Of a stretch of 24,664 nucleotides of DNA, positions 4,136-18,759 are shown piece after piece. Under the pieces are notes generated by a model. It saw only the letters and a list, made by a program, of their open reading frames with translations, was not told where the DNA came from and did no database searches. The stretch lies in the IMG/VR virus record IMGVR_UViG_3300025308_000344, positions 1-24,664 of that record. The stretch is one strand, 5' to 3'. Numbering within the stretch: position 1 is the stretch's first letter; each line of letters begins with the position of its first letter. Position numbers and translations under genes: made by a program. Source of the stretch: a virus.

Positions 4136-4936
4136 TTAAATTCCCAGCCCGCCAAAATTGCCATACTCATAAACCTGTTCAATATAGACGGCAACAGGCT
4201 TTTTAATCAGAACCTTTGCGTTTGTGTCAGTATCATTGTCATATCTGACCCACAGATATTCCCATCCCTTTTTCGCGATGTTTGTAATTGAGCCGATTGT
4301 TTTGCCTGTAATATTCGGACTTGCTGAAAATTTAAAAGTCATTTCCCAATCGCCGCGATTGCCGCGCTTTGAGCCGGATGCCCCCATAAACAAAACTTCT
4401 CCCGCACTATACCCACCCCAGGAGCTGTTATTGACCTTGCCGGTGAGAGCAAAAAGAGTCTGTTTGTAGGTTGGTGTTACAACGCCGGTAGAAAAAATAT
4501 AAGTATCCGACCATGTGAACACAGGCACTGTAATATCGCAGCCATTTACGCTGTTATTGTCAACGCAAATAGCGCCATCAAACACAGGTGCGGTCTTGCC
4601 CGATGGAGCGTACCTGCTGATAGTTGACAGGCTTTGCGTAATGTGCTGCGTACCGCCGCCAGTTTCAAAAGAAAAGTTGGACTCATTAGGGTTTTGCTGA
4701 TTATTAGACATACCATACTTGGCAACACCTTCCCAAATCGTCTGTGCAATTTGAGCAACTTCGCACGATACTTTCGGTAAATCATTCCAGGTAGAAGGCG
4801 CGGTTGTTCCGAGTATCGAAAGCGCAGCGGCATCATCGTCTGTATTCTGGATAATGTATTCAACCTGTGCGCTTCCGCTTTGTGAACTAACTAATTGACG
4901 GCCAAGATATTTTTCTTCGCAAGTTACATCCGGCAT
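4136..4936 (-). CDS. Putative distal tail or baseplate protein
   Basis: A 266-residue protein (MPDVTCEEKYLGRQLVSSQS start) just downstream of the tape measure gene. That is where siphoviruses encode the distal tail and tail-tip proteins. The sequence is beta-rich, with a central block (ETGGGTQHITQSLSTISRYA) and a C-terminal half containing WGGYSAGEVLFMGASGSKRG and WEYLWVRYD. I do not recognise a named domain, so the call rests on gene order and composition. Its ATG overlaps the tape measure stop as TAATG, indicating coupled translation. A collar or fibre-anchor role is possible. Confidence 0.65.
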   Translation of the reverse strand: MPDVTCEEKYLGRQLVSSQSGSAQVEYIIQNTDDDAAALSILGTTAPSTWNDLPKVSCEVAQIAQTIWEGVAKYGMSNNQQNPNESNFSFETGGGTQHITQSLSTISRYAPSGKTAPVFDGAICVDNNSVNGCDITVPVFTWSDTYIFSTGVVTPTYKQTLFALTGKVNNSSWGGYSAGEVLFMGASGSKRGNRGDWEMTFKFSASPNITGKTIGSITNIAKKGWEYLWVRYDNDTDTNAKVLIKKPVAVYIEQVYEYGNFGGLGI

Positions 4937-6870
4937 TAGACGAACTCCTCGCCACTATCTTCGGTATTATCAGCTATTTCTGCGGTGTTTTTGGCAGTCT
5001 CCTGGGAAGCGGCTGCAATCTTTTGCATTACACCGCCAGCGCCAAGCCCTGATAATCCGGATGCACTGAATGTTCCAACTGCTGTAGCACCGCCAGCCGC
5101 AACCGCATCGCTAAACTTCGGAGGTACTTTCGGCAGAGCAGGAGCTTTTCCCGCCGCCGGCTCTGCGGCTTTTGCGAGCGATGATTGCCACTGGCTCTTT
5201 GCTTTGTCAAGTTCCGCACCAACAGCCGCGAGCCTATCTGCCGCTTCCTTGTCGTTTGCAGCCAAATCATTCGCATACGACTGAGCGGTTGTGTTCACAT
5301 TGTTTTGATACGCCGATGATGCGTTTGAGTGAGAGTTTGTTCTGTCTTTTTCAATGTCGGAATATGCTTTGTTGTTCTCAGATTCCCTGTCAGCCTTGTC
5401 CTGTGCAAGCTGGTCATCAACATAGCCTTTGGCAAACGTATCATCAAATTTGGGATTGAGCAGCTTCTGCCACCAGATATAAATGCCCATCAATTTCCTG
5501 ACGCACCAATCTGACACATTCGCAAAAACAGATTTAAAACCTATCCATGCCGTTTTCAGAAAAGCAACCGTTTCAATCCAGGCAACCTTAATGCCATAGA
5601 CAGCTGTATCCCAAACTAAAACCATCGAATATCCGATTCCGTTCCAGTATTCCAAAAACTTGTTTTTGAATGAAAGCCATATCTCAAGCAATACCTGCTT
5701 ACCTTTCAAAAATTCCATCTTCAAGGTTAGCCACAGGATTTGAGCGGCAAGTGTAATATCACCCTTTGCGAGCGCCTGACTGATGCCGTTAAATGCCTTT
5801 GTCGCATCCTGCTTCAATTCAACAAACCTCTCGCCAAGCCAGGCGAGTAACTTGCCACCATATCCACTGAAATACAGAAACGCCCCAACACCTGCGGTAA
5901 GTGCGGTGACAATCATTCCGAGCGGAGAGAGTATGAACAGCAGCACCGTTTTGAGTACCGCAAAAGCGCCGATAACGATGGAGAGGATTTTCGCAGAAAA
6001 CGTCATCGCAAGTCCGAGTGCATAGAACGCTGCGCCAGCCGCTGTAATACCGGCCCCGACATACAGCGCCATTACAACAACTCCCTTGTTAATTTTAATC
6101 CACTCCGTTATCTTAGCCACGACCGCAACTATTTTATCGGCCATATCGGTCAATATGGGAATAAGAGCCGCTCCAACCCGAAACAATTCCATTTTCATAA
6201 CAGCGGTAAGTTTTTTCAGTTCATCGTGAAATACCGATGCCGCCTCGGCATCCTGTGTACTCATAATCAGGCCGAGCCGATGAGCTTCCTCGATTAGTGC
6301 GTTTATGCCGCCTTTGCCTTTAGCAAATATCGGCAGCAGCTCTGTACCAGCTTTTCCGAATATCTTCATCGCCAGCGCAGCTCTATCCGTTGGATTTTTG
6401 AGCGAGCCGATACGGTCGGCCAATTCAATGAATTGCCGGTCAGGCGACATTGAGTTTAATTCTTTCGCCGTAAGTCCAAGTTGGCCAAACGCTTCAGCGG
6501 CTGTTTTTAGCCCGCCGCCTGCCGCAAATAGATTTTTCTGCATGAACCGGATGCCCTTAGCGACATCTTCAATGCTGCCCTCCGTTTGACTTGCGACATA
6601 GCCAAGTCCGCTGAGAGCCTCTACGCTCATTCCTGTCTTTGTCGCCATATCAGAAAGGGTATCGCCCATCGCCGCCGCCTTTATAGAAGCGCCCGCAAGA
6701 GCGCCAACGATTGAGGCACCGGCAAGCATTGTCCTGCGACCCATTGCAGATACGGTTGAACCCCATGAACGAAGTGATTTCTCGGCAGAACGAAGACCGC
6801 GAATAAGCGGATTCTTATCTACGAATATCTCGACATACGCTCGACCTGCTTTTATTGCACCAGTACTCAT
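4936..6870 (-). CDS. Tape measure protein (tail length determinant)
   Basis: A 644-residue protein. It opens with a typical tape measure N-terminus: AGRAYVEIFVDKNPLIRGL, RSAEKSLRSWGSTVSAMGRR, then Gly/Ala helices. Residues about 70-220 carry the phage tail tape measure pattern (MGDTLSDMATKTGMSVEALS, RQFIELADRI, GTELLPIFAKG). A hydrophobic stretch spans about residues 263-336, and the C-terminal part is helical and Ala/Asp/Lys-rich. It sets tail tube length and helps eject DNA. At the usual 0.15 nm per residue the tail would be about 95-100 nm, a rough inference. GGGAG lies five bases before the ATG. A heptamer inverted repeat lies immediately upstream. Confidence 0.93.
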   Translation of the reverse strand: MSTGAIKAGRAYVEIFVDKNPLIRGLRSAEKSLRSWGSTVSAMGRRTMLAGASIVGALAGASIKAAAMGDTLSDMATKTGMSVEALSGLGYVASQTEGSIEDVAKGIRFMQKNLFAAGGGLKTAAEAFGQLGLTAKELNSMSPDRQFIELADRIGSLKNPTDRAALAMKIFGKAGTELLPIFAKGKGGINALIEEAHRLGLIMSTQDAEAASVFHDELKKLTAVMKMELFRVGAALIPILTDMADKIVAVVAKITEWIKINKGVVVMALYVGAGITAAGAAFYALGLAMTFSAKILSIVIGAFAVLKTVLLFILSPLGMIVTALTAGVGAFLYFSGYGGKLLAWLGERFVELKQDATKAFNGISQALAKGDITLAAQILWLTLKMEFLKGKQVLLEIWLSFKNKFLEYWNGIGYSMVLVWDTAVYGIKVAWIETVAFLKTAWIGFKSVFANVSDWCVRKLMGIYIWWQKLLNPKFDDTFAKGYVDDQLAQDKADRESENNKAYSDIEKDRTNSHSNASSAYQNNVNTTAQSYANDLAANDKEAADRLAAVGAELDKAKSQWQSSLAKAAEPAAGKAPALPKVPPKFSDAVAAGGATAVGTFSASGLSGLGAGGVMQKIAAASQETAKNTAEIADNTEDSGEEFV

Positions 6871-6893
6871 TTCGCTCCCTTCGGTCGCTCAAT

Positions 6894-6963
6894 AGTTATC
6901 AGCTATCAGTCCTCAGTCTTCAGCAAATTCTTTTCACTGAAAGCTGATGTCTGAAGACTGACC
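6894..6963. repeat. Inverted array of 7-base repeats (CTGANNN family), site 1
   Basis: Two arrays of degenerate heptamers face each other. The left array, 6894-6924, reads AGTTATC, AGCTATC, AGTCCTC, AGTCTTC. The right array, 6936-6963, reads ACTGAAA, GCTGATG, TCTGAAG, ACTGACC. A perfect 11-base inverted repeat pairs 6913-6923 with 6951-6961. The element fills the gap between the second chaperone ORF and the tape measure gene. It also supplies the last codons and TGA stop of that chaperone ORF. Confidence 0.85.
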
Positions 6964-7239
6964 GCTGCAATTAATTCCTTTAAACGCTTCACGAAGTATT
7001 CCAATATTCTCTCGCGTCACCAGGACTGAATCCTTTTTGACAGAGTAGTAAGGATTAAAGTCGGTTGGCTTGAATACCTTACTCTTCTTCGGGTCGCGGT
7101 TTATATTTGCCAGTAATGCCATAAGATTAGAAGCCCTCGACCATGCATCACGGCCTGCGCCCTCTGACATCCACAGAAGCTCCCGCAAAGTAAGACCGCC
7201 AGGGTCAACGCCTATCGCGCCGGCTAACTGATAAATCAA
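6934..7239 (-). CDS. Tail assembly chaperone, downstream ORF (lambda T-like position)
   Basis: A 101-residue product between the first chaperone and the tape measure gene, which is the place of the second tail chaperone ORF. The blocks GGLTLRELLWMSEGAGRDAW and NRDPKKSKVFKPTDFNPY recall a small conserved family I associate with planctomycete prophages. The ORF lies in the -1 frame relative to the preceding gene. The only start is a TTG whose TTGA overlaps the upstream stop. The frame stays open further upstream (NESASGTGQDTWEL), so a -1 frameshift fusion as in lambda G-GT is possible. I found no canonical XXXYYYZ heptamer near the overlap. The last ten residues (GQSSDISFQ region) come from the heptamer repeat. 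Confidence 0.75.
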   Translation of the reverse strand: MIYQLAGAIGVDPGGLTLRELLWMSEGAGRDAWSRASNLMALLANINRDPKKSKVFKPTDFNPYYSVKKDSVLVTRENIGILREAFKGINCSGQSSDISFQ

Positions 7240-7670
7240 TTCCCAAGTATCCTGGCCAGTTCCGCTTGCGGATTCATTGCATCGAGCTTCATTCTTACGT
7301 TCTCTATTGCCATCTCTATCATTGTCTTCTGCGCGGCTACAGCCCTGGCTCTGTCCGGCCTGCCGCGCTTTTGGAAAAAATCTACAAGTTCCTCATAGAG
7401 AGCTGTTTGAGCGGCAAGGATAGCATCGCCGCCCAGCGCACGACCAAAGTCGACATCAGTAACGCCGAGAGCATCCGCCTGCGGTTTGATTAAACAGTAC
7501 ACAACATCGCAGAGCAGAATCTCATCGGTGCCAAGACGTGTCAAGAGAGGTGGTTCTCCCGCCTCCGGTTCGACAAGATTGACACCAAGTAAATCTCGCA
7601 CGCGTTTTACACTGTCGATTGTCATTGCAACCGACCACGTCTTGCCGGCATTATCAGTAAATGCTTTCAT
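7236..7670 (-). CDS. Tail assembly chaperone, upstream ORF (lambda G-like position)
   Basis: A 144-residue protein starting MKAFTDNAGKTWSVAMTIDS. The pattern resembles phage tail chaperones that bind the tape measure while the tail polymerises. It has a short beta start (TWSVAMTIDSVKRVRDLLGV), a central DxxLLCDVVYCLIKPQADAL segment and a C-terminal helix rich in Ala/Arg/Met (RARAVAAQKTMIEMAIENVR). The assignment rests on order (tail tube, this gene, T-like ORF, tape measure) and size. GGATGGAATAAA precedes the ATG. Its TGA is embedded in the TTGA start of the next ORF. Confidence 0.78.
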   Translation of the reverse strand: MKAFTDNAGKTWSVAMTIDSVKRVRDLLGVNLVEPEAGEPPLLTRLGTDEILLCDVVYCLIKPQADALGVTDVDFGRALGGDAILAAQTALYEELVDFFQKRGRPDRARAVAAQKTMIEMAIENVRMKLDAMNPQAELARILGN

Positions 7671-7722
7671 TTTATTCCATCCTGTCTTTTAGAAACTCTA
7701 AAACAAAAAGAAGTTTTGTATC

Positions 7723-7792
7723 TCGTGAAGCGTATCTCGTTGTTTTTCGCTTCACACTTCACGCCTCACGCTTCACGAACGACGAAATACGC
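7723..7792. repeat. Inverted array of 7-base repeats (CTTCACG family), site 2
   Basis: Four consecutive heptamers at 7750-7777 read CTTCACA, CTTCACG, CCTCACG, CTTCACG. An opposing copy lies at 7723-7732 (TCGTGAAGCG), which is perfectly complementary to 7769-7778. A second nested pairing, with one mismatch, joins 7731-7740 to 7783-7792. The 126-base gap between the tail tube gene and the chaperone gene is largely this element. The sequence differs from sites 1 and 3 but the 7-base period is the same. Confidence 0.82.
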
Positions 7793-7796
7793 CTGA

Positions 7797-8249
7797 CTAT
7801 ACACCATCAATTGCCCACGCCTTATACGTCGTCAGCTTGGCGGTGATATTGTACTTGATAGCCTCGGTGAGCGTTTCGTCACGACTGAACTCTGTAATAG
7901 ACCAATCGCCAACGGGACCTTCCACTCCGGTAGTTGCCTTTGCTCCGGTCAGTACGGCAAGTCCAATCGCGCTATTGGCAAGCCACGCAGTCCTGAGTGC
8001 TATCAGTCCGGCATCACCGGCCTTTGCAACTAAGCCAAATGACACTTCAGCCTCCTTGAGCGTTGGCGCTATCGCTTTCCAGCCGGAATTTGCGCGGGTA
8101 GTAATATCCGCATCGCTGGTGCTGATTTTTAGAGATACATCCTGAATGCGATCTAAAGTTAGCGTAAACGCAGTTAACGCCGAACCCAACGTTGCGTTAT
8201 AATACAGTTTTGCATCGATACCGAGCATGAAATCAGGTGTTGTTGCCAT
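7797..8249 (-). CDS. Major tail (tail tube) protein
   Basis: A 150-residue protein with a recognisable tail tube pattern. It has an early beta block (DAKLYYNATLGSALTAF), the motif VSLKISTSDADITTRANSGW, then LKEAEVSFGLVAKAGDAGLI and a late strand (TLTEAIKYNITAKLTTYKAW). The DVTxxxxxxxaDvTTRann.GW block is one I know from single-domain tail tube proteins of siphoviruses in planctomycete prophages. These form stacked hexameric rings around the tape measure. The ribosome site is AAGGAATTTAAA. It follows the gp10-like gene by 22 bases and precedes the chaperones. Confidence 0.87.
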   Translation of the reverse strand: MATTPDFMLGIDAKLYYNATLGSALTAFTLTLDRIQDVSLKISTSDADITTRANSGWKAIAPTLKEAEVSFGLVAKAGDAGLIALRTAWLANSAIGLAVLTGAKATTGVEGPVGDWSITEFSRDETLTEAIKYNITAKLTTYKAWAIDGV

Positions 8250-8271
8250 TTTAAATTCCTTATAAAAAAAA

Positions 8272-8730
8272 TTACTTTTTAATACTATTTGCCCACATCG
8301 CGGGCAGTTTTGGTAAATTCTTATTTAGCGCCGGGTTCATATAAGGCCGCGGAGCGATGGTTACATATTTTTTGCTGCTGAAAGCTGACAACTGATGGCT
8401 GATAGCTGCTTTCCCGCCATACTCAAGAGTATGCGGAGCATCCTTTCCCTTGACACCGCCGAGCTTTGCAGGGCCAACGACAACCGACTGTGTCGATTTA
8501 TCGTAGCCAAAGAAGATGAACCGTTTAAGTAGTCCGGTCTGACTTCTTGGCGGCTGGCCGGGCAGACTGGTTTTATGTTTCCTGCCGCCTGGCTTAATAC
8601 TGCTCTTTGCCTCCCTGCGAATAAATGCACCGATTTTACTCAGCACAGACCTTGCCGCTTTGTCCGCGGCAGAAACCACTTCCTTGCTGTCAAAGAACAT
8701 CTTCTTAAATTGGATTATGCTTTTTGCCAT
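8272..8730 (-). CDS. HK97 gp10-like / tail completion protein with repeat-encoded insertion
   Basis: A 152-residue basic protein resembling HK97 gp10-type head-tail joining or tail completion proteins. Visible parts are an N-terminal helix pair (VVSAADKAARSVLSKIGAFI), a basic loop (SIKPGGRKHKTSLPGQPP), TGLLKRFIFFGYD, the strand VVVGPAKL, HTLEYGG, and a C-terminal block APRPYMNPALNKNLP. Between HTLEYGG and the APRPYM block, residues about 108-119 (AISHQLSAFSS) are encoded by five heptamer repeat units at 8377-8411. They probably lengthen a surface loop. It starts six bases after the upstream stop and only a weak GGAT is seen as ribosome site. Confidence 0.8.
   Translation of the reverse strand: MAKSIIQFKKMFFDSKEVVSAADKAARSVLSKIGAFIRREAKSSIKPGGRKHKTSLPGQPPRSQTGLLKRFIFFGYDKSTQSVVVGPAKLGGVKGKDAPHTLEYGGKAAISHQLSAFSSKKYVTIAPRPYMNPALNKNLPKLPAMWANSIKK
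8377..8411. repeat. Five 7-base repeats (CTGANNN family) inside a coding region, site 3
   Basis: The units read GCTGAAA, GCTGACA, ACTGATG, GCTGATA, GCTGCTT. They are flanked by a 6-base inverted pair (8380-8385 with 8408-8413). This is the same family as sites 1 and 5, but here it is translated, without a stop, within the gp10-like gene. Confidence 0.82.
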
Positions 8731-8736
8731 TAGTTT

Positions 8737-9219
8737 TTATCCAAAGTAGCCCATATAAATGTTTGCCTTCGTTGCATTGGTGAGCGTCAATACCTCCGCG
8801 GCAATCCAATCAATGTCGAGACCATCAAAACTTGCAACACATACCATATCGTTGCCGCTGTTTGGTGATTTAATATCGAGCGGCCAATACATCGTAACAA
8901 CTGCCGTGTCTGCATATCGCTGCAAATCGGATGATTCCTGGGTCTGCGGGTCTTGCAAACAAACCATCTGGCCAAGCGTCCAGGTAATGTCTGCAATGAG
9001 TATCGCCGGCCCGCCGCTGCCTCTGCCGCCATATAGTCGTGTCTGAACAACGCCATTGTTCGCTCCGATAGCGGCAACGATGATTTGAAGCCCTCTGATT
9101 ATTGATGAAGCTACGTTATGAGCATACGATGGTTTGCAATCCATCGTGCCGACAGCCAGTGGTGTATCGACAGCTTCAACTGACCGTATTTTCTGCCAAC
9201 CTTGATTATGAATTCCCAT
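8737..9219 (-). CDS. Phage structural protein of unknown function
   Basis: A 160-residue protein (MGIHNQGWQKIRSVEAVDTP start) between the adhesin and the gp10-like gene. It is hydrophobic-neutral and probably beta-rich, with a Gly-rich loop (LYGGRGSGGPAILIADITW) and a C-terminal TNATKANIYMGYFG. I recognise no family. Position suggests a neck or minor tail component, or part of the accessory block. I chose the ATG at 9219 because AAAGGA lies ten bases upstream. An in-frame start at 9282 would overlap the end of the adhesin gene. Confidence 0.65.
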   Translation of the reverse strand: MGIHNQGWQKIRSVEAVDTPLAVGTMDCKPSYAHNVASSIIRGLQIIVAAIGANNGVVQTRLYGGRGSGGPAILIADITWTLGQMVCLQDPQTQESSDLQRYADTAVVTMYWPLDIKSPNSGNDMVCVASFDGLDIDWIAAEVLTLTNATKANIYMGYFG

Positions 9220-9250
9220 ATTTAAAAATTCCTTTCTGCATTTTTTTACT

Positions 9251-11704
9251 CTACGCACAAACCGAAAGCCGCCGAAACGCATTCTGCTGTGCTATTGTTA
9301 CGTCGTCGCCTGCCAGATTTTGATAATGAATTGTCTTTCCTGCCGCTGGAGCCCATTTTATTGGTCCGGCCAGAGCATTATTAGCTGTGGTGTTATAGAC
9401 GCTGCCGCGAACAATGAAGTATGCGCCACTTGCTGCGGCGCCCAGTACCCAGTTTGACCTGTTCGCTGCTGCGGCGTATAAATCGCCCGATACATCCGCG
9501 TATGAATTTACTCCTACCAGGTAGATGCATCCTGAGTTATAAATCCCGTTGCCTGCTATTAACGTGCCGCCGCTCTGCGTTACAACGGTGCCGGTCCCGT
9601 CTAACCGCATAACAAAACACTGGTCCCCATTTGAATTGCCGCCATAGAGATTGCCGACTATTGTTAAAATCAATCCTGACGCAGATGTATTAGCATATAA
9701 CGCCATGCCATACATCCCTGAACCAGATTGCGCAGCCCACATAGTCCCAGTGATAGTTACAATAAGATTTGCTGCTGCAAGATATACGGCTTCAGTATGT
9801 GTTACTCCTACTCCTGCCATCAATGTTCCATTGATTGTTAAAGTTGCTCCGGCTCCTACGGCATATACTCCATACGTATTTAATCCTATCCCGCCGTAGA
9901 TACTGTCACTGACATTTAGCTCGACTATAGCGCCTGCGGCGATATATACGGCACACGTGGAAGTTCCTGCGACTATCGATGTGCAATTTACAGTTACCTT
10001 GTTTCCAGAGTTATTTACTCGTATCAAACCGGTTGAACCGGAACCACTGATAATACCGGCATTGAGTATCTTAACGCCCGCGGACGCATCAATAATGAGT
10101 TGACTTGACATCGCTCCTATCGCATATACATCTCTGACAGTAATGGTTGCTATATCCATTACCATAACAAGATTATTCAAATATGTGTTTTGTTCTGCCG
10201 TGGGGGCAGCATTACCGTACCAATTAGACCCTGTGCTCCAATTGCCGGCAGTCTTTGCTATAACGGCTTGTAATACATAGGTTTCACTGCTGAACGCGTT
10301 GGCGGTGTTGTTAGTCTTATCGCCGCCATAGTATATTCGGCCCGTATAATTGTTCCTGACGGCATATGCGGTATTATCGACCGTACCACCGGTGACATTA
10401 CCTGTTATCAATAACATGCCGGTACTCCAATTACTGATGCCGGTAGCATTGGCGCCGCTTCCTCCGGTTACATTCCCTATAACAACAATTTTTCCTGAAC
10501 CATTATTAGTGATACCGCTTGCCGCGCCACTACCGGAGGAAATATTGCCTGTAACGGTTATCGTCGAAGAACTGTTATTCCATATAGCGCTGGCAATTAA
10601 CGAGGCGGTTACATCACCTGTGATAGTTACAGACCCGCTTCCAGCGGCATATATGCCACACGCTGATGCGTCAACGGTTCCGCCAGTGACGCTTCCGGTA
10701 ATTGTTAAAATCGTAGTTCCGGAAATTGAGACTCCGTACGCCGAATTTGCCGAGCCTCCTGCAACAGCTATAAGTTCGCTGCTGCTTCTGATGACATTTG
10801 CCGTGCCGGCCGGAGCAACTATACCGCAGCCCGCAGCGCCATAGACACCGCCATTTGCGTTAATGGTACATCCGGTAACTGCTCCACTTGCCACTGTTAC
10901 ACCATACGATGACGAATTTGCTCCTCCGGTAATAAGTTCTCCAACGGTAACATTAGAATTAGAGTTACTAATGCGGATTCCATGTGCTCCGTTGTTCCCC
11001 CCTGTAACATTACCTGAAACCGTTATCGATGCACCAGCATTAGTTCCTATACCATCTGCATTGCTCGCTGAGCCGCCATAAACATTTCCTGTGATAGTAA
11101 CCGTGCCTTTACCAAATACACCCTTCGCGTACGACTGAGTACCACCATACACATTGCCTGTGATATTCAGAGTACCGCCGCAGCCCATCCAGATTCCGTA
11201 GTTATTATTCACCGTGCCGCCATGAACGTCACCAGTCATATTGAGGGTGATACCAGAACCACCAAAGTTGAATCCGTAAATATATCCTACTGCCGATTGC
11301 CCGGCGCAGATGTTTCCAGCGAAATTTATGGTCTGTGTTCCAGCGGCTGTGTATAAGGCGCTGTTGCCGGTTCCTGCGTACATATTGGCACAAATTAAGG
11401 TGAATGTGTAATTGCTGATCAGATAGACGATATAACTGGTTCCCGCTTGTATTGTACCAGAGCATCGTAAGGTTTTATTGTCGGCATAAACAAAAATCGT
11501 GCCACTCCCTGTTGCATCAGCAGCTTGGCCCGCATACAGGCCAGCAAGATTTGCGGTGTCACAATCTAAATTAACCCAGTAACTGCATAAGAATACCGTC
11601 TCACCGTCTACCGGAGCGCGACCAAGAGAGCTGCCTCCGGGACTGTCCGACCAAACAGACGTACTCCAATTGACACCGCTGCTACATAGATAAACGTTAG
11701 GCAT
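9251..11704 (-). CDS. Large repetitive beta-helix adhesin-like protein
   Basis: An 817-residue Gly/Thr/Asn/Ala/Val-rich protein. Residues about 130-470 hold more than ten imperfect repeats of roughly 20-30 residues built on (V/I)xITGNVxGGT...A.GI, such as LNITGNVYGGTQSYAKGVF and VTITGNVYGGSASNADGIG. This is the pattern expected of a right-handed parallel beta-helix. A Trp module near the N-terminus (VNWSTSVWSDSP) recurs near residue 485 (GNWSTGSNWYGN), suggesting two related halves. The C-terminus (KWAPAAGKTIHYQNLAGDD) lies outside the repeats. No signal peptide is visible, so it is more likely a virion fibre or decoration than a secreted host protein. Its ATG overlaps the upstream stop as TAATG. 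Confidence 0.75.
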   Translation of the reverse strand: MPNVYLCSSGVNWSTSVWSDSPGGSSLGRAPVDGETVFLCSYWVNLDCDTANLAGLYAGQAADATGSGTIFVYADNKTLRCSGTIQAGTSYIVYLISNYTFTLICANMYAGTGNSALYTAAGTQTINFAGNICAGQSAVGYIYGFNFGGSGITLNMTGDVHGGTVNNNYGIWMGCGGTLNITGNVYGGTQSYAKGVFGKGTVTITGNVYGGSASNADGIGTNAGASITVSGNVTGGNNGAHGIRISNSNSNVTVGELITGGANSSSYGVTVASGAVTGCTINANGGVYGAAGCGIVAPAGTANVIRSSSELIAVAGGSANSAYGVSISGTTILTITGSVTGGTVDASACGIYAAGSGSVTITGDVTASLIASAIWNNSSSTITVTGNISSGSGAASGITNNGSGKIVVIGNVTGGSGANATGISNWSTGMLLITGNVTGGTVDNTAYAVRNNYTGRIYYGGDKTNNTANAFSSETYVLQAVIAKTAGNWSTGSNWYGNAAPTAEQNTYLNNLVMVMDIATITVRDVYAIGAMSSQLIIDASAGVKILNAGIISGSGSTGLIRVNNSGNKVTVNCTSIVAGTSTCAVYIAAGAIVELNVSDSIYGGIGLNTYGVYAVGAGATLTINGTLMAGVGVTHTEAVYLAAANLIVTITGTMWAAQSGSGMYGMALYANTSASGLILTIVGNLYGGNSNGDQCFVMRLDGTGTVVTQSGGTLIAGNGIYNSGCIYLVGVNSYADVSGDLYAAAANRSNWVLGAAASGAYFIVRGSVYNTTANNALAGPIKWAPAAGKTIHYQNLAGDDVTIAQQNAFRRLSVCA

Positions 11705-12018
11705 TAAATCACCTTGCGAATAGTGTTCATCCCATGCACAAGACCGAGAATACCGGCAAATACCTGACCTACTGAGGCTTGTAATGAAGCCAAATCTTCA
11801 TCAAGATGCTCAATATCATCCAGCCTGATAGACTCGACTTTCCCCGTCAGCTCCCAGGCTTCATTTGGCTGGCCGGCATTATCGCATTTTGCGGCGGCGA
11901 GGACTATTTGTACTGATGTCTTAATTTTTCCTTCGACTACCCCGCTTTGAATAAGTATCTGCGGGATTAATACTGCATTAGGTTTTACGATTTCTGTGTT
12001 TTGAATTGGAATAGGCAT
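11704..12018 (-). CDS. Small phage protein of unknown function
   Basis: A 104-residue protein (MPIPIQNTEIVKPNAVLIPQ start). The N-terminal half is beta-type with KTSVQIVLAAAKCD. The C-terminal half is acidic and helical (RLDDIEHLDEDLASLQASVG), with a possible short amphipathic or coiled-coil segment. It precedes and is translationally coupled (TAATG) to the adhesin, so it may be a chaperone, connector or attachment partner for it; that is inference. The ribosome site is AAAGGATAAAAA. Confidence 0.6.
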   Translation of the reverse strand: MPIPIQNTEIVKPNAVLIPQILIQSGVVEGKIKTSVQIVLAAAKCDNAGQPNEAWELTGKVESIRLDDIEHLDEDLASLQASVGQVFAGILGLVHGMNTIRKVI

Positions 12019-12021
12019 TTT

Positions 12022-12564
12022 TTATCCTTTCAACTTTGCAGCCAAAGCGTCAACTTCGGCCTGTGTATATAGTTTTTCTGTTTCGTTTTTAACGGCTTTG
12101 TCAACTTCAACTTGTACCTCTGCCGGTGTACTCAATGTTTGTACTGCGTGAATTCGTGTTGCTATACCGCCGAGTAATGCCGACACAATTATTGTAGCGA
12201 TTCCCATTTCACCGAAAATTTTATCTGACAACGCCTGTGCTGTTTTGTAATTCGTTTCGGCTTCATTGTTGGCAAGATTAAATGACTTGTCGTCCTTGTC
12301 GGTCAAATACGCATATTGAGCCTGATTCAACGCATGAACATACTTGACAGCGGCAAGATTCTGCTTAGCACCGGCAAGATTGTTATAGCCCAAATAATTC
12401 CTGCCTTTGTTTATCGAAGTCGAAAAACAAGGGTCGTTGTCGAAAATATAACGGTCTGCCAAAATACTTTTATCAGCCGGCATAAATTGGTCTGACAGAC
12501 AGCCCGCGATAAGTGTCAACGCCGTTATAAAAAACAACACAACTAAAATCACATAATTTTTCAT
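12022..12564 (-). CDS. Putative phage lipoprotein with a second membrane segment
   Basis: A 180-residue protein with a hydrophobic signal (YVILVVLFFITALTLIAGC) ending in a lipobox-like LIAGC with Cys22. A second hydrophobic segment lies around residues 118-138 (IATIIVSALLGGIATRI). The remainder is helical and charged, ending in LYTQAEVDALAAKLKG. It lies beside a holin-like gene and a DUF1353 gene, so a lysis (spanin-like) or superinfection-exclusion role is possible; neither is shown. AAGGA lies seven bases before the ATG, and ATGA overlaps the previous stop, so translation is coupled to the DUF1353 gene. Confidence 0.65.
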   Translation of the reverse strand: MKNYVILVVLFFITALTLIAGCLSDQFMPADKSILADRYIFDNDPCFSTSINKGRNYLGYNNLAGAKQNLAAVKYVHALNQAQYAYLTDKDDKSFNLANNEAETNYKTAQALSDKIFGEMGIATIIVSALLGGIATRIHAVQTLSTPAEVQVEVDKAVKNETEKLYTQAEVDALAAKLKG

Positions 12565-13010
12565 GCTACGTTCCTTAAAATAATGTCCTTATCTTCAATT
12601 ACCGGCTCTAAATCGTTCTTGACCGGATACGTTGCTTTTTCACCGAACCATCGGAGTCCCTGCCAGTAGATACCGGCGATAGTTTTATTCCCGCCGCGAG
12701 CGATACAAATATCCCTGAATAAATTATCTGCCGCAAGTCTATGCTGTTCTCTGGACAGTAAGCCCTCACGAATCAACTGATACAACGCATCGTGTATCAA
12801 AGACGCTGTTCGCGTAATTTTTGAATCCGGTATGCCCGATGCTCCATCCCAGGCATAACCAGCAAAAACAGTCAAGATACCATCAGGTGTAAGTTTTACG
12901 AACTTCGGTATCTCAACATTACAACCCAGGATACCAGTCTGAATGCTTATTGTTTCAGCCAGTTCATAGTTATAAGACTTTTTCCGTTTTGATATTTCTC
13001 TGTATTTCAT
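12561..13010 (-). CDS. DUF1353 family protein
   Basis: A 149-residue protein with the hallmarks of DUF1353: AGYAWDGASGIPDS, then an Arg (TRTASLIHDALYQL) and a C-terminal RADNLFRDI-type segment (AADNLFRDICIARGG). Members occur in many phages, near neck or lysis genes. The conserved Asp, His and Asp residues have been suggested to form an enzymatic site, but the function is unproven. It overlaps the downstream lipoprotein gene as ATGA and starts two bases after the upstream stop, so it is part of a tightly coupled set. A role in cell-wall attack is possible, since no other lysin is visible. Confidence 0.8.
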   Translation of the reverse strand: MKYREISKRKKSYNYELAETISIQTGILGCNVEIPKFVKLTPDGILTVFAGYAWDGASGIPDSKITRTASLIHDALYQLIREGLLSREQHRLAADNLFRDICIARGGNKTIAGIYWQGLRWFGEKATYPVKNDLEPVIEDKDIILRNVA

Positions 13011-13012
13011 AA

Positions 13013-13441
13013 CTATCCAACCATCCGGTACGTAACGGTAATTACGCTGGTGAAAACATTGTCGCCGGCGAGATGTTCCCGCGAATAAATCGGGTCAATT
13101 TTCGTATTAATCCATATAGCAACTCTTGTCGTCATTGTTAAATGTTTGAGTTTCAGGAAATCCTTTATTTCCGTAACAAAAGAAATCAACGCCACCGTTT
13201 CAGTTTCATAATCTGCGGTGAGTTTCTTCTGGATACCAATATCAATACTATAGTCATCCTGTTCGCTTACTCGTGTGACAACAGATGAATCAACCGACCG
13301 CGGAACTACAGTTACCTTTAACGCGGCCAGTTCTTTTAATTCAAAGTTTGGAAAGACCGTGCGCACCGGAGTAAACGAATAGCTGAATGTCCCGGTAATT
13401 AACTTCGCTGCCAAAGCATCTGCTATTTGAATAATATCCAT
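13013..13441 (-). CDS. Tail terminator-like neck protein
   Basis: A 142-residue protein (MDIIQIADALAAKLITGTFS start). The pattern FELKELAALKVTVVPRSVDS, then YSIDIGIQKKL and a late beta strand (VFTSVITVTYRMVG), recalls a family I know at the head-tail joint of planctomycete prophages. In siphoviruses this size and alpha-beta layout fits the tail terminator that caps the tail tube. It lies three bases after the holin-like gene and ends two bases before the DUF1353 gene. AAGGA lies ten bases before the ATG. The exact neck role is inferred. Confidence 0.65.
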   Translation of the reverse strand: MDIIQIADALAAKLITGTFSYSFTPVRTVFPNFELKELAALKVTVVPRSVDSSVVTRVSEQDDYSIDIGIQKKLTADYETETVALISFVTEIKDFLKLKHLTMTTRVAIWINTKIDPIYSREHLAGDNVFTSVITVTYRMVG

Positions 13442-13444
13442 TTA

Positions 13445-13735
13445 CTACTCATCCTTTTTATTGACTTGCTTGCATGGAAAGCAGGGTATGCTTTTAAGCA
13501 GACCTATCAACTCTTCGAGTAAGTTAGAGTTTTTTGTAATGGCCTCAGTGCTCCCCTTGCACAAATCAACCAGTACACACCGAAAATCTGATTCCAATGT
13601 AGAAAGAGTTTTCTGGTTTTCTTCTATGGCCTTCGACATCCGCTGTTCACGCTTCCATCCCTGCCATACGAAAAATAATACCAATGCCACAGGTACACCA
13701 AATTTTTCAATCATGTTGAATATTATCTGTTCCAT
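13445..13735 (-). CDS. Small membrane protein, holin-like (UviB/BhlA type)
   Basis: A 96-residue protein with one N-terminal transmembrane helix (GVPVALVLFFVWQGW, about residues 13-27) followed by a basic turn and a long charged helix (KREQRMSKAIEENQKTLSTL). That is the architecture of UviB/BhlA holins. The C-terminus has CFPCKQ. It could form membrane holes at the end of infection, but single-helix membrane proteins with coiled coils have other uses too. The ATG overlaps the upstream stop as TAATG. It is the first gene of a block that separates the connector from the gp10-like and tube genes. Confidence 0.6.
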   Translation of the reverse strand: MEQIIFNMIEKFGVPVALVLFFVWQGWKREQRMSKAIEENQKTLSTLESDFRCVLVDLCKGSTEAITKNSNLLEELIGLLKSIPCFPCKQVNKKDE

Positions 13736-14097
13736 TATGCTGATACCTCTTTTGTATGAACTCTCATTGTTATTTGATGCGGGTCGCTATACCGCCAGCA
13801 ACCATCGCCCGATAAGAACACAATCTCAAACGTCTTGTCATCGGCAATTATCCTGTCGCCTTTTTTGGGTTCGATTAGGATGCCGCCCAATACTAAATCT
13901 GCCGTCAGGATAATCCAGTCTGCAATCTGGCCGTAAACAGACAGTCCTGATTCATCAGACACCTCAAACTTAGTGACACCGCGAGTGCCGAGTACACCGA
14001 CGGTAATTACACCTCGCGTATAGGTAACGGTTTCCGACATGTGTTTGATTCGCATATCAGAAAGCCATTGAGCGCCGGTTTTTAATATGTTGGCCAT
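13735..14097 (-). CDS. Head-tail connector (stopper-like) protein
   Basis: A 120-residue protein with MANILKTGAQWLSDMRIKHM, TVTYTRGVITVGVLGTRGVT, DWIILTADLVLGGILIEPKK and GDRIIADDKTFEIVFL. The DLVLGG...EP..GDRI segment is one I recognise from head completion proteins in planctomycete prophages, likely equivalent to the lambda gpFII-type stopper. It follows the decoration protein gene, as expected for a neck protein. A large inverted repeat lies directly upstream, and only a weak ribosome site is visible (GATGATGTGAA). Confidence 0.7.
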   Translation of the reverse strand: MANILKTGAQWLSDMRIKHMSETVTYTRGVITVGVLGTRGVTKFEVSDESGLSVYGQIADWIILTADLVLGGILIEPKKGDRIIADDKTFEIVFLSGDGCWRYSDPHQITMRVHTKEVSA

Positions 14098-14115
14098 TTC
14101 ACATCATCTCAATCA

Positions 14116-14216
14116 AATAGGCTTTGGGCTTTAGACTTTGGGTTTGGGGTCAGGCTTAGGACTCTGGGTAGAATACTTTTTACCTAAAGCCCAAAGCCCA
14201 ATACCCAAAGCCTATT
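14116..14216. repeat. Large inverted array of 7-base repeats (GGCTTTG family), site 4
   Basis: Heptamers GGCTTTG, GGCTTTA, GACTTTG, GGTTTGG run from 14120. The opposing arm has CTAAAGC, CCAAAGC, CCAATAC, CCAAAGC (14184-14211). Pairings are a perfect 15-base inverted repeat (14120-14134 with 14184-14198) and, in another register, 13 bases (14116-14128 with 14204-14216). It fills the gap between the DUF2190-like and connector genes and overlaps the DUF2190-like stop codon. There is no T-tract, so a classic terminator is unlikely. Confidence 0.88.
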
Positions 14217-14952
14217 ACGCTTCCTGAGCCCACGTTCCGCGAATTGCGGCAATTCGGTAGCCATCTGTGCCATCAGCAACGAACGTGATGAAGTCGCCTT
14301 TCTTGGCTGTCGCTTTGGTGTTCGAGAGCTTCTTGCCATCACCGCCAGCGGCAACGCCAAGCCCACCGATATTCTTATCTGCTGCCTGGAAGTCAACTTC
14401 GACAAGAGCCGCACCATCAGCGGCCATATTCATCACCGTAAACTCCAAACCTGCCGCTGTTGCAGGCAGAGTGATTACAGCAGCATCCGCTGTGACATCG
14501 TAACAAACACCGGACTCTGTCACGCCTGCGTTTGCACTTGCAGCCTTTGTGATACGAGCGCCCTGAGCAAACGTAGGTATGCGCGGGTCAAACTTGTTGA
14601 TTGCGACATAGACGAACTCATCCGCTGCCAGAGCGCCAATAACGGCCATACCAAGCAGGACATCACCCGTCGCCTGGGCATCGCCGCCGATCTGCGTAGC
14701 AGCGCCGGTGCCGGCTGTGCCGACTTTCGGATTACCGTTGGCATCGAACCAGACGGGAAGACCGGCAACGAATGCCTCATCCTTTTTTGGAACTGCAAAA
14801 ACACCCTCGACGGCCAGAGCGCCTTTGGCACCTGCCGCAATATCGAGCTTGGTAATACCAACTTGTCCTTTTAATACCACGATAGTCCCGGCTGCTACAT
14901 CAGCGGCCGGTGTGTAATCGATTGATTTTCCATTTTGATAGAAACTAATCAT
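14215..14952 (-). CDS. DUF2190-like capsid decoration/head protein
   Basis: A 245-residue protein. The first 115 residues have the DUF2190 pattern: MISFYQNGKSIDYTPAADVA, AGTIVVLKGQVGITKLDIAA, VFAVPKKDEAFVAGLPVWFD, then GDVLLGMAVIGALAADEFVY. DUF2190 proteins are head decoration or cement proteins of the capsid surface. The C-terminal 125 residues are a further beta-rich, Ala/Gly-rich domain (ITLPATAAGLEFTVMNMAAD, FITFVADGTDGYRIAAIRGT), which may be a surface-exposed addition. The gene is directly after the capsid gene. AGGAG precedes the ATG by nine bases. High Ala/Gly/Val and low Cys fit an abundant virion protein. Confidence 0.82.
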   Translation of the reverse strand: MISFYQNGKSIDYTPAADVAAGTIVVLKGQVGITKLDIAAGAKGALAVEGVFAVPKKDEAFVAGLPVWFDANGNPKVGTAGTGAATQIGGDAQATGDVLLGMAVIGALAADEFVYVAINKFDPRIPTFAQGARITKAASANAGVTESGVCYDVTADAAVITLPATAAGLEFTVMNMAADGAALVEVDFQAADKNIGGLGVAAGGDGKKLSNTKATAKKGDFITFVADGTDGYRIAAIRGTWAQEA

Positions 14953-14979
14953 TGTTTTTTACTCCTATAAAAAAAATAT

Positions 14980-15007
14980 CTGAAAACTGATAACTGAAAG
15001 CTGATAG
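14980..15007. repeat. Four tandem 7-base repeats (CTGANNN family), site 5
   Basis: CTGAAAA, CTGATAA, CTGAAAG and CTGATAG follow each other without interruption. They lie between the end of the protease-capsid gene (15014) and the ribosome site of the DUF2190-like gene (14952). The family is that of sites 1 and 3, in one orientation only. Confidence 0.88.
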
Positions 15008-15013
15008 CTAATA

Positions 15014-16990
15014 TCACGCTTCGCCTTTTATCTTCACCGCGCCCCGGTAATCCTGCTCTTTGACCCCGAAGTCGATATATCCTCTGAATTGGATACCGAG
15101 TGTATTAAAATCTGCATCGGTTTTTTCAACGGTCGGCCTATCGATTCCATTGAGGAACGCAACCTCAATGGCCGGCAGCCGATTGGGATCGGCAAACAGA
15201 TACCACGCCTTGGTACTGGAGCCGGTAAAACTCGCATTACCCAGATACGAAGAACTCACAACAGAGTACTTGCCGGCATGCGGGTTATCCTGGGGTTTGC
15301 CCTTATCGGCGGTCGTTGTCTCATTGAGTTTTAGAGAGCTCATAAGAAGCTGAGCCTGTACCTTCAATGCGTTGGGTACCAGCAAAATACTTGGCGCGAT
15401 ACCTAAAGGCCGTTTGTTCGGCTTGGTCTGATCCAAAAACAGCAGCTCAGCAAGCGTAAGACCATCGACGCTTAATACTGTTTCTGCACCGGCCAGATAA
15501 TTCTTATTATTGGTACTGAAGAACGTGCCGGGATTCGATAAGAGTAATGACCATACAGCCTCGGCTATTGCCTCGGCAGCGCCCATACCGATTTGACGGG
15601 GCAGATCTGTGAATGCACCCATATCATCGTTTATGATCATCTGACGGGTAAGAGCGAACATAATGCCGTGGGTATCGGCCTTTTGCGAGAATGCCTGCTC
15701 ACCTATAGAGCCATGCTTTATCTCACCATCAGGGCCAATAGCCTCGAATTTCAAGTTGCCGGTCATGCGATAGCGGGTATGCTGCTTGAAATCGTTGACC
15801 GATGCTACCTTGCAAATCTGCCGCCATGCATCCTCGATATAGTTATAACCCTCAAGGAGCATTTTATTGGCGATGTTGGACAATATCCCCGGCAGCGAGA
15901 TGGTACTGAACGCAGCCTGTAGCCATCCGGTAGCATCGCTGCGAAAACGCGGCAGCTGTTTTCCTACAGCCCGCTCGCAGAATTCCTGGATACCCATCCC
16001 GCGCATTTTATCTGCAGCGGTTAAAATCTTGTCATCGTACATGGCAGCAAGCCGCTTTGCTGTTATTCCGGCTGTGATCATTGCCGATGCCTCAAGAACG
16101 GTTGGTGTTGTCTGGCTTGCATGTTCATGAATGGCAGGCGCTTTGGGTCTTGATGTTCGAAGAACTTCCAGCTCCGTTCGCTCTTTATCCCAGCCATCTT
16201 CGATTGCCTTGGCCTCTATGTCCGGGAATTTGCCAGCGCAGGTTTCCTGAATGGCCGAGATACGTTTGGTCTCAGCAGCAATCTTCTGACGCATCTGGGC
16301 AACAGGGTCAGCGATGACAGGCGCTGCTGCCGAGGCATTGATGGTTTCTGGAGTCGCAGGTATCGGCGGAGTCGGTGCGATGGCCTCTACCTTTGTCGGC
16401 TCGGTTGCTTTTTGGACTTGGGGTTTAGTAACTTCTGCTGAACTTTGTGGTACTGTCTGCATTTGATTCTCCTTTGCTGCGATTTTAGCGCTGGTTTTCG
16501 TATCAGCGCCGTTATCGACAAAACTGATTTCTTTTAAAACTGATTGACGAACTATATGAACCGGACCATCAAATGTCCGGCCGTTGACTTGAATGTTCTG
16601 ACCATTGGGTACAAACTCCACCTTTACAACTGCAGCACCGATTGACGCCTGCCATGGGAATCCGTTACCTCCGCTTTTGGCGACATCGCGTGCCCAGCTG
16701 GTATCACGGCTAATGAGACCTTCGGCAGTCACCTGGCCATTCTCAATAGTTACACACCGGGTATGTCCTACACCCTGGCGTGGATTATGGTCTAACCGAA
16801 TGGGTATATCCTGCCTCGGAATAGACAGACCCTCAAGATCGACGACCACTGGATGCGGGAATCCCTCGATATTCATCGGACCACCGGTATATGCTACCAT
16901 TGTGAATTTAGGAATGGCCTTACTGTCTGCTGCGGCTGCAATTGAAAGCGGGCATGTAAATTCAAACGAATCAGGCAACTTGTTTTGCAT
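15014..16990 (-). CDS. Prohead protease-major capsid protein fusion
   Basis: A 658-residue fusion. Residues 1-175 look like a head maturation protease (IPIRLDHNPRQGVGHT, GFPWQASIGAAVV, VLKEISFVDNGADT). Residues about 177-300 form a Pro/Ala linker and a helical delta or scaffold-like part. Residues about 320-658 are an HK97-fold capsid subunit with GILSNIANKMLLEGY, DFKQHTRYRMTG, DGEIKHGSIGEQAF and FNTLGIQFRGYIDFG. The chosen ATG has AAAGGAG seven bases before it and overlaps the portal gene end by 20 bases; a start nine codons upstream lacks such a site. An internal in-frame ATG at 16462 (Met177) has an almost identical site. That could let capsid protein exceed protease. From memory, such fusions occur in planctomycete phages. 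Confidence 0.88.
   Translation of the reverse strand: MQNKLPDSFEFTCPLSIAAAADSKAIPKFTMVAYTGGPMNIEGFPHPVVVDLEGLSIPRQDIPIRLDHNPRQGVGHTRCVTIENGQVTAEGLISRDTSWARDVAKSGGNGFPWQASIGAAVVKVEFVPNGQNIQVNGRTFDGPVHIVRQSVLKEISFVDNGADTKTSAKIAAKENQMQTVPQSSAEVTKPQVQKATEPTKVEAIAPTPPIPATPETINASAAAPVIADPVAQMRQKIAAETKRISAIQETCAGKFPDIEAKAIEDGWDKERTELEVLRTSRPKAPAIHEHASQTTPTVLEASAMITAGITAKRLAAMYDDKILTAADKMRGMGIQEFCERAVGKQLPRFRSDATGWLQAAFSTISLPGILSNIANKMLLEGYNYIEDAWRQICKVASVNDFKQHTRYRMTGNLKFEAIGPDGEIKHGSIGEQAFSQKADTHGIMFALTRQMIINDDMGAFTDLPRQIGMGAAEAIAEAVWSLLLSNPGTFFSTNNKNYLAGAETVLSVDGLTLAELLFLDQTKPNKRPLGIAPSILLVPNALKVQAQLLMSSLKLNETTTADKGKPQDNPHAGKYSVVSSSYLGNASFTGSSTKAWYLFADPNRLPAIEVAFLNGIDRPTVEKTDADFNTLGIQFRGYIDFGVKEQDYRGAVKIKGEA
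16457..16478 (-). promoter_or_regulatory. Internal ribosome binding site and in-frame start within the protease-capsid gene
   Basis: On the minus strand AAAGGAGAATCAAATGCA places a consensus Shine-Dalgarno five to six bases before an ATG at 16462. That ATG is in frame with the fusion and encodes MQTVPQSSAEV. The site is nearly the same as the gene's own start region AAAGGAGAATACAAATGCA. Initiation here would give a 482-residue protein holding the delta region and capsid domain. Confidence 0.6.
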
Positions 16991-18362
16991 TTGTATTCTC
17001 CTTTGGTAACAGGCCAAGTTCGGTCATTAGTTTTTTTTCTTTTGAACGCTGGCGAAGTTCAACTTCCCAGTCTTTGCCCTGACGGGCGAATTCAGCGGCT
17101 AAGGTTGTTGTATTAGAGATAAGGCGCTTCGACTGGGCATTGGCCTCTTTGGCAGGATCGACATGCTCGACACCATCAAAGAACCACTGCCTTGGCAGAT
17201 ATGGCTGTCTTCGCAGGAATGCAAACTCTGTTAAAAGCTGCGCTTCATATAACCACGCCTCAAAAATCCTATCTAATACCACCTCACCCATATGTGCCTG
17301 TTCGACGCGGATACTCTTATAATAAGTCTGATGGTCGAGTCGACCGGATGCGTAGTTGTAGCCTGAACTATTACACAGTGCGATATTGAGCGGCATATTC
17401 ATACAGCGTGAGATCTCATTTAAGACCTCGCGCTTGAATTCTGAATAGGTGGTTGTCGGCTGCTGGGCCTCTATTTGACCGAGTTTCCAGCCATCGGGTA
17501 ATGTAGTTGCCATTCTTTTTTCAAGTCCGACAATATCCATCGGCTCTAAGTTTGCCGCTTCACCGTTGGCAGGACTATCGGTATAGAGCACCGCGGCAAA
17601 ATCGGCTGCTGTCTCGGCAGCGCCAAGAACAGCTAAAGTATATCTTCGTAATTGCGCAAAGAGCGGCAATGCCGGTGTGATCTCCGGGATACCACGATGC
17701 TGGCCGGGTCTGTCTATGCGGAACCAATGAATCATCGCAGCTGCGCTGATACGGTCGCAGTCCATCGAAAAATATCCACCATCTCCCGGATGCTGTCTGA
17801 GGACATAATACATAGCCGGATTACCCCAGGCGTCGAATTCAATACCATCGACAGAGTTACCTGCAATCAATGTAAGCTGCGGACTGGTAACTCTTTCAGC
17901 CTCTACGAGTTGAAGATCGAGTTTTACTGAGCATCGAAGCTGCATATTGGCAACTAACATACCGAACGCTTCACCATCTCCGGCCTTGGCCATACGCATT
18001 GTGCGAAGTTTTTCAGCTAAATTGGTACTATCGGCCCAGCGACTAAACTCGGTTTCGATGCGGCGATTGATTTCAGGACTGTCGGTAAGAAGCTGTAATC
18101 TTGGCCCGGTTCCGATGCAGTCATTGGCAATGGTAAGAATAATGCCCTTGGCATATGAATTATTGGCAATCTCGTAGCGGCTCCGCTCACGAAGTTTGCT
18201 GCGAACATCTGCGCTTGCTGCCGCATCGGCCGAGAGCGAATCGGCATTTGCCCAATGACGGGCGTTGTCGGCGGTGGTTTGCGCGGCATCGAACCTTGCC
18301 CGCAGGACACGTCCTGCCGGATTGACAACTTTGCACCCTTTGTTTTTGAACCATGAGAACAT
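16971..18362 (-). CDS. Portal protein (lambda gpB-like)
   Basis: A 463-residue portal that forms the dodecameric DNA gate of the head. It resembles the lambda-type portal family: N-terminal GRVLRARFDAAQTTADNARH, the block RSRYEIANNSYAKGIILTIA, IGTGPRLQLL, WADSTNL, AFGMLV, QLVEAERVTS, FRIDRPGQHRGIPEITPAL, then NMPLNIALCNSSGYNYASGR and a C-terminal helical part. AGGAG lies eight bases before the ATG, inside the preceding small gene, whose TAA abuts the start. The 3' end overlaps the protease-capsid gene by 20 bases. Confidence 0.9.
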   Translation of the reverse strand: MFSWFKNKGCKVVNPAGRVLRARFDAAQTTADNARHWANADSLSADAAASADVRSKLRERSRYEIANNSYAKGIILTIANDCIGTGPRLQLLTDSPEINRRIETEFSRWADSTNLAEKLRTMRMAKAGDGEAFGMLVANMQLRCSVKLDLQLVEAERVTSPQLTLIAGNSVDGIEFDAWGNPAMYYVLRQHPGDGGYFSMDCDRISAAAMIHWFRIDRPGQHRGIPEITPALPLFAQLRRYTLAVLGAAETAADFAAVLYTDSPANGEAANLEPMDIVGLEKRMATTLPDGWKLGQIEAQQPTTTYSEFKREVLNEISRCMNMPLNIALCNSSGYNYASGRLDHQTYYKSIRVEQAHMGEVVLDRIFEAWLYEAQLLTEFAFLRRQPYLPRQWFFDGVEHVDPAKEANAQSKRLISNTTTLAAEFARQGKDWEVELRQRSKEKKLMTELGLLPKENTNAKQVA

Positions 18363-18560
18363 TTAATCTGCTCCTGGAGGAGATAGTTTTGTGAATTTCA
18401 AACCCAGCCCTTTGCATTGGCTGGCATTCTTACTGGCCAAATACTTATCCGCGGCAATTTGCTCAGACAAAGGGTGTTGTTCAACGGAAACTCCGTCACT
18501 GGAAACTTTTGCCGGCGACTTTGCATTTTCTAAAATCGAATTATTTAAATCATCTGCCAT
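18363..18560 (-). CDS. Small protein before the portal, starting just after a tRNA
   Basis: A 65-residue soluble protein (MADDLNNSILENAKSPAKVS start). It has a conserved-looking core HPLSEQIAADKYLASKNA and the end LGLKFTKLSPPGAD. I remember short proteins with (S/L)x(D/E)QIxADrYLASk and K/RLxPPG in this location in planctomycete prophages, where they sit like lambda gpW; the function is unassigned. The ATG lies two bases after the last tRNA base and no Shine-Dalgarno is visible. If the tRNA 3' end is cleaved, the message would be essentially leaderless. Longer ORF versions run through the tRNA and terminator and are rejected. The TAA abuts the portal ATG. Confidence 0.72.
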   Translation of the reverse strand: MADDLNNSILENAKSPAKVSSDGVSVEQHPLSEQIAADKYLASKNASQCKGLGLKFTKLSPPGAD

Positions 18561-18562
18561 AA

Positions 18563-18634
18563 TTGCGGGAGAAGGATTCGAACCTTCAACCTGCGGGTCA
18601 TGAACCCGCTGAGCTGCCATTGCTCTATCCCGCC
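18563..18634 (-). tRNA. tRNA-Met(CAT), initiator-like
   Basis: The 72-base sequence folds as a standard cloverleaf: acceptor GGCGGGA/TCCCGCA, D-stem GAGC/GCTC with loop AATGGCA, anticodon stem GCGGG/CCCGC, loop TTCATGA, variable AGGTT, T-stem GAAGG/CCTTC with TTCGAAT. The anticodon is CAT. Initiator hallmarks are visible: a mismatch at 1:72 (G:A), an A11:U24 pair, and three consecutive G:C pairs at the base of the anticodon stem. No CCA is encoded; A73 is followed by TT and the ATG of the next gene. It lies between an intrinsic terminator and the head operon, all on the same strand. Confidence 0.88.
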
Positions 18635-18651
18635 GTAACAACCATTTATGC

Positions 18652-18698
18652 GAGCCAAAAGAAAAAGCCGTGCAGGGGATGCAGCCCTGCACGGCTTT
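18652..18698 (-). terminator. Strong intrinsic terminator upstream of the tRNA
   Basis: A perfect 14-base stem (18664-18677 with 18685-18698, AAAGCCGTGCAGGG and its complement) with a 7-base loop. On the minus strand it is followed by TTTTTCTTTT. It stands before the tRNA and head genes, so transcripts from the terminase side should stop here unless antiterminated. The other strand has a weaker T-run, so bidirectional use is possible. Confidence 0.8.
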
Positions 18699-18759
18699 AT
18701 TACTTTTGGTTTTTGCCTGCCCGATAGCTAGTCGTCAAGCGTATTAACTTGTCTATCTT

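Follow-up and report, generated by a model that had tools for sequence, protein, structure and literature searches.

Several kinds of short bacterial repeat resemble the arrays described here. Direct TAACTGA repeats are found in Beggiatoaceae, Cyanobacteria and Bacteroidetes (MacGregor 2015, PMC4679880), and the class 3 putative regulator sites of Geobacter metallireducens consist of five tandem MTYCTGA units that occur in pairs (PMC2700814). Heptameric simple sequence repeats (STRR/LSSR) are known from Nostoc, Calothrix and Xanthomonas (PMC4692102 and the literature it cites), and REP- or MITE-type elements, such as the GTAG- and CGTC-tagged REPs, are dispersed and palindromic (PMC3733652). 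The prevalence of a period of exactly seven among bacterial intergenic repeats has lacked an explanation since the surveys that PMC4692102 and PMC4679880 cite. Our literature search returned no paper on heptamer repeats in planctomycetes, and we met none that describes heptamer arrays as segregating insertions in a phage.

We analysed a window of 24,664 bp (W), an entire IMG/VR record, in which five sites, numbered 1 to 5, carry period-7 arrays. Like TAACTGA repeats, these arrays have a CTGANNN skeleton (TAACTGA is CTGATAA in a shifted register), lie between genes, have a period of seven, show 7-nt indels and are sometimes missing in close relatives (PMC4679880). Unlike them, they belong to a genome with many heptamer families and segregate between sister phages, and N is free: sites 1, 3 and 5 contain variable N rather than exact tandem TAACTGA units, with TAA being one of 24 triplets. 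Nor do the window arrays stand in forward orientation just upstream of start codons; their orientation is mixed, and all four gap arrays begin at most 7 nt past the upstream stop codon or overlap it, about 20 nt ahead of the next start. The Geobacter class 3 sites resemble site 1 in anatomy, with CTGANNN units in inverted arms around a spacer (about five units per arm, compared with about four at site 1), but comprise only 16 putative sites, assigned to a single family in one cultured proteobacterium (PMC2700814).

With STRR/LSSR arrays, those studied here share 7-bp tandem units beyond chance, an intergenic location, degenerate positions, several families per genome (as in Calothrix) and occasional inverted pairs. 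They differ in that neighbouring units are not near-copies, as recent tandem copies would be, in the CTGANNN arrays of the host metagenome-assembled genome (MAG) and window, and in that a fixed hairpin module, or a dispersed element longer than the array, accompanies some families. Like REP and MITE elements, site 2 and the hairpin module of the host are short non-coding dispersed intergenic elements with hairpins. Only site 2, however, has several copies that share sequence beyond the repeat units; sites 1, 3, 4 and 5 have no such multi-copy sequence in the part of the host sampled. In contrast to REP elements, no cognate transposase was found here. In 59 relatives, the number of Y1 (REP-type) transposases is weakly correlated with CTGANNN arrays (rho 0.27, p 0.04), and we set this candidate driver aside.

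Period-7 arrays in the structural block of a tailed phage

The window represents a tailed phage whose structural genes lie on the minus strand and encode tape measure, major tail, neck, tail chaperone, head decoration, head/protease, portal and terminase proteins. A tRNA gene adjoins the portal gene (18563-18634, minus strand; Rfam tRNA, 60.9 bits) and falls within the mechanical ORF 18363-18692.

A local period-7 detector (score of at least 11) found six segments at the five sites, whereas 300 Markov-1 (dinucleotide) simulations averaged 0.07 segments and never exceeded 2, so the signal survives the comparison with shuffled sequence on which the initial annotation had made it depend. Other periods from 4 to 30, excluding 7 and its multiples, gave 0 or 1 segment each. 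The detector also bore out, in the main, the array coordinates and unit types proposed earlier: CTGANNN at sites 1, 3 and 5, CTTCACG at site 2 and GGCTTTG at site 4. None of the five sites matched a curated family among the Rfam covariance models.

Site 1 (6894-6963) consists of two mutually inverted CTGANNN arms (6894-6923 and 6937-6963) of about four units each. It lies at the junction of the tape measure gene (4936-6870, minus strand), which is downstream of it, and the gene 6934-7239, whose C-terminus it encodes. Site 2 (7676-7796) had been described as a CTTCACG array; such units are present (7748-7777), but they form a small portion of a longer dispersed element, from which the site as a whole derives. 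Site 4 (14117-14215) has inverted GGCTTTG arms (14117-14150 and 14182-14215) that form a strong hairpin; the period-7 segments there span 14118-14154 and 14183-14214. Sites 3 and 5 have a single CTGANNN arm each, and site 5 (14976-15009) starts 7 nt past the stop codon of the major head and protease gene (15014-17017, minus strand).

The claim that every gap of more than 50 bp among the structural genes carries an array holds for all four such gaps. The rule is local to the structural block, however, and array-free gaps of this size lie outside it at 1421-1516, 18693-19236, 21737-21852 and 22066-22133. Site 3 (8377-8410) does not occupy a gap but sits within the neck or tail-completion gene (8272-8730, minus strand; PHROG 5), where it is read in frame and encodes AAISHQLSAFS. 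Inverted repeats had been reported at three sites, whereas perfect arms of at least 10 bp occur at only two, site 1 (11 bp) and site 4 (15 bp); the repeat at site 2 is imperfect (80-90%), and sites 3 and 5 have none.

Heptamer arrays across the planctomycete host genome

A search with the head/protease gene, which also located the relatives, led to contig MHXU01000150.1 of the MAG Planctomycetes bacterium GWC2_45_44, which is 100% identical to window positions 5017-16524. The host of the phage is an uncultured planctomycete.

Across 811 kb of this MAG, chosen regardless of arrays, we found 75 period-7 segments (score of at least 13) and none in shuffled controls. Among the other periods from 4 to 14, non-multiples of 7 gave 3-18 segments (0 for period 4), and the harmonic at 14 gave 39. 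More than ten families were represented, including CTGANNN, CGTGAAG, AAAGCCC, CCCTANN, TTCTGNA, CACTTTT, CAACTTT, TTTTTGA, CAGTAGN and GAAGANT. Only 9 of 70 merged arrays were in ORFs, compared with 89% of the sequence being coding, and the host arrays taken together did not favour stop codons over start codons (medians 56 and 68 nt). Four consecutive CTGANNN units matched 51 times (overlapping matches) in the MAG and the reversed pattern not once; CTGANNN runs were present in 27 of 59 genomes of the host neighbourhood, and some relatives (G057, for example) had near-perfect arrays. The host search that the initial annotation had proposed thus revealed a host-wide planctomycete feature, with hundreds of such stretches in the genome, many sequence types and one period. 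The idea that the units supply stop codons in each of the three frames was rejected, as it fails to fit all families.

The window sites differ in how closely they resemble host sequence. Site 2 is truly homologous to an element of roughly 145 bp that is dispersed in the host, where about ten copies match it. The ends of this element have AGAGTTTCT in common, in direct order, with no clear target duplication. In roughly 1.1 Mb of the MAG sampled, sites 1, 3 and 5 had motif-level matches only and site 4 no match at all, and none of these four had extended homology to any host copy; we infer a host origin for them.

Scans of IMG/VR with five CTGANNN units, a reversed control and a period-8 control each returned at least 120 matches and so did not discriminate the CTGANNN pattern. 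In the two period-7 scans, the matches listed contained 471 further period-7 arrays, compared with 16-132 at non-multiples of 7, these loci having been preselected for one period-7 array and some of the contigs possibly being host DNA. Among the matches listed, viral contigs with one CTGANNN or AGTCNNN array often had several more heptamer families, with at least one more at 121 of 203 loci; examples are L147, L154, L158 and L162. Multi-family period-7 arrays thus seem common in uncultured phages or prophage-bearing contigs.

Differences between sister phages

Where they overlap the window, four sister contigs (L009, L010, L011 and L016) show about 91% identity to it, and three outgroups (L018, L019 and L026) served to polarize the differences. 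In the sisters, the gaps are not ordinary conserved spacers, the outcome that would have counted against the initial annotation; comparison with the sisters displays insertions directly, along with an inversion at site 2 and presence or absence of site 3.

W and L009 carry site 1; L011 lacks it, and there the flanking genes abut. Because the upstream protein ends at about the length of the L011 protein in all three outgroups, site 1 is a gain that also lengthened this protein, a recent one acquired as a two-armed block. The left arm of site 1 is the same in W and L009, and the right arm differs at six positions, all of them N and none within CTGA. W and L011 have site 3, L009 and L010 lack it, and the corresponding loop is shorter in the outgroups, which shows site 3 as an in-frame insertion into a variable loop. 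The neck-gene orthologue of L009 (window 8272-8730) is interrupted by a group II intron-like insert of ~2.5 kb near window position 8334, with a putative reverse-transcriptase-like ORF and a 5' end that reads GTGCGATGCGTAGG on the gene strand.

At site 2, L011 carries the core in the opposite orientation to W (97.8% identity to the reverse complement over 46 bp), between two flanks that are 100% collinear. The order in L011 is that of the host copies, so W and L009 carry the inverted form. W also has 14 extra bases, exactly two units, that are lacking in L009, L011 and the host copies. Sites 4 and 5 occur in every sister that covers them (L009, L011 and L016), and site 5 is unchanged in all three, though the haplotypes differ by about 9% elsewhere.

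More distant relatives held only two period-7 segments in 431 kb of phage and prophage DNA. In L018, the orthologue of gap 2 is filled from stop to start codon by an array of a different heptamer family (TTCTTCA-type), and in L019, from the same MAG, this gap has no array. These comparisons show that arrays in the phage arrive, flip and change quickly. At ~11505-11518, L010 joins window position 11894 directly to 16845, with several structural genes missing; this contig is either a deleted prophage or a chimaera.

Unit statistics of CTGANNN arrays

We compiled 131 units from 41 distinct CTGANNN arrays of the host and window. Of 64 possible triplets, 24 were used; N1 was almost never G, N3 was never C, and N3 was the only position homogeneous within arrays. 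Neighbouring units were identical in 6.7% of cases, compared with 6.1% after shuffling within arrays.

These statistics bear on whether each array grew in situ from a 7-base seed, through tandem duplication, before decaying. Among long simple repeats of bacteria, heptamers are the commonest, and polymerase slippage has been proposed as their source (PMC4692102, PMC4679880); some relatives have near-perfect arrays, and site 2 of W has grown by exactly two units. Tandem duplication should, however, yield alike neighbours, which makes slippage alone inadequate for CTGANNN and contradicts, for this family, simple slippage as the form of the amplification suggested in the initial annotation. Acquisition of site 1 as a two-armed block and dispersal of the site-2 element together with its flanks also argue against slippage, and we regard it as quite improbable as a general account.

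Retention of CTGA while N varied between sisters at sites 1 and 3 would also fit binding sites for a DNA- or RNA-binding protein, in which each CTGA forms one contact with free bases between. Both TAACTGA repeats (PMC4679880) and the paired five-unit MTYCTGA sites of Geobacter (PMC2700814) have been proposed as regulator sites. Such binding would leave CTTCACG, GGCTTTG and many other period-7 families unexplained, and array positions vary between sisters; we consider this reading very unlikely.

Folding of the arrays

Folding of the mRNA strand is stronger than in shuffled sequences at sites 1 and 4 (z of -3.45 and -3.32, respectively) and weak at site 2, and sites 3 and 5 do not fold (z of about -0.4). 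In L009, the z values are -3.45 for site 1 and -1.95 for site 4. The arms of sites 1 and 4 are of one family in inverted order, and this is why they form hairpins.

The arrays might instead be selected RNA hairpins that stabilise or end transcripts and so set the ratio of head to tail proteins, much as the initial annotation had suggested in proposing that hairpins tune mRNA. The persistence of both folds in L009 and the abutment of all four gap arrays on an upstream stop codon would suit such a role. Against this as a common purpose, two sites are unfolded and a third barely folds, site 3 is coding, and site 1 is missing from L011. At site 4, comparison of W with L009 finds 23 pairs unchanged, 9 preserved despite a one-sided change and 7 broken, with no case of double compensation. 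A comparison of two haplotypes cannot settle the matter, but it lends no support to a conserved RNA role, and neither folding nor the pair comparison supports a conserved hairpin as the general role of the arrays. We judge it unlikely.

Probable passengers of host type

Overall, we consider it probable that the five arrays are host-type dispersed heptamer repeats that have colonised the phage, mostly as passengers. They would be copies or derivatives of the degenerate period-7 repeats dispersed in the planctomycete genome, entering the phage intact, as elements some tens of bases in length, and spreading by element-like copying rather than by slippage alone. Rearrangement in place would then account for the inversion of the site-2 core, its two-unit expansion and the turnover of free positions in one arm of site 1. 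Arrays would survive at the least harmful positions, most of them in the stretch from a stop codon to the ribosome-binding region that follows, with one tolerated in frame in a variable protein loop (site 3), and most would probably be near-neutral.

In favour of passengers of host type, we count the identical phage DNA in the host MAG, the abundance of host arrays compared with shuffles, the scarcity of arrays in distant phage regions and the unlike neighbours in CTGANNN arrays; the host copies of site 2, the empty site 1 of L011 and the site-2 inversion point the same way. Several observations pull in the other direction. Sites 1, 3, 4 and 5 have no extended homology in the host sequence sampled, no target duplication or element end could be defined, CTGA is kept while N changes, unlike neutral decay, and site 5 is unchanged between divergent haplotypes. 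The phage and its sisters amount to a natural experiment on a small scale: at orthologous sites, gains, inversions and the turnover of units can be read off.

Hairpin-headed arrays in the host

The module most often found beside host arrays is a hairpin, ATCGSC-loop-GSCGATTCC, also given as ATCGSC-loop-GSCGATTCCACA. Of 32 strict copies, 81% are continued by a period-7 array on their TTCCACA side and 6% on the opposite side, compared with 10% for random intergenic sequence, 11% for shuffles, 19% for period 6 and 22% for period 8; the copies come partly from contigs chosen for CTGANNN arrays, and most head-adjacent arrays are of other families. At least eight families occur beside the module. 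Both inner pairs of its stem are exchanged, with GC/GC in 22 copies and CC/GG in 13. Examples in the host MAG (G001) include L055 2419 (minus strand, after groEL), L076 19225 and 19362, L054 6853 and L079 10895. In four other genomes (G009, G010, G012 and G051), 5 of 6 module copies, read by eye, lead into a heptamer array, that of G051 belonging to a further family. None of the window's arrays carries the hairpin head.

The array side faces the stop codon of a gene in 26 of 31 module copies with neighbours, many at 29-38 nt, a stop-to-module distance of about an array length. Among host arrays, only this hairpin-headed subset is oriented relative to stop codons. The result is a testable anatomy with a polarity, from stop codon through array to hairpin, which would not be expected from slippage alone, and this composite is the most promising lead on the maker of period-7 arrays. 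A broader and rather unlikely proposal is that one process in these bacteria writes heptamer arrays of many sequences from a restricted set of words, not by slippage, and reaches resident phages, acting in the host often on one side of this fixed hairpin at the 3' ends of genes. On L054 of the host MAG, positions 7188-7232 of the minus strand match the Acido-Lenti-1 RNA motif (RF01687) slightly over its gathering score.
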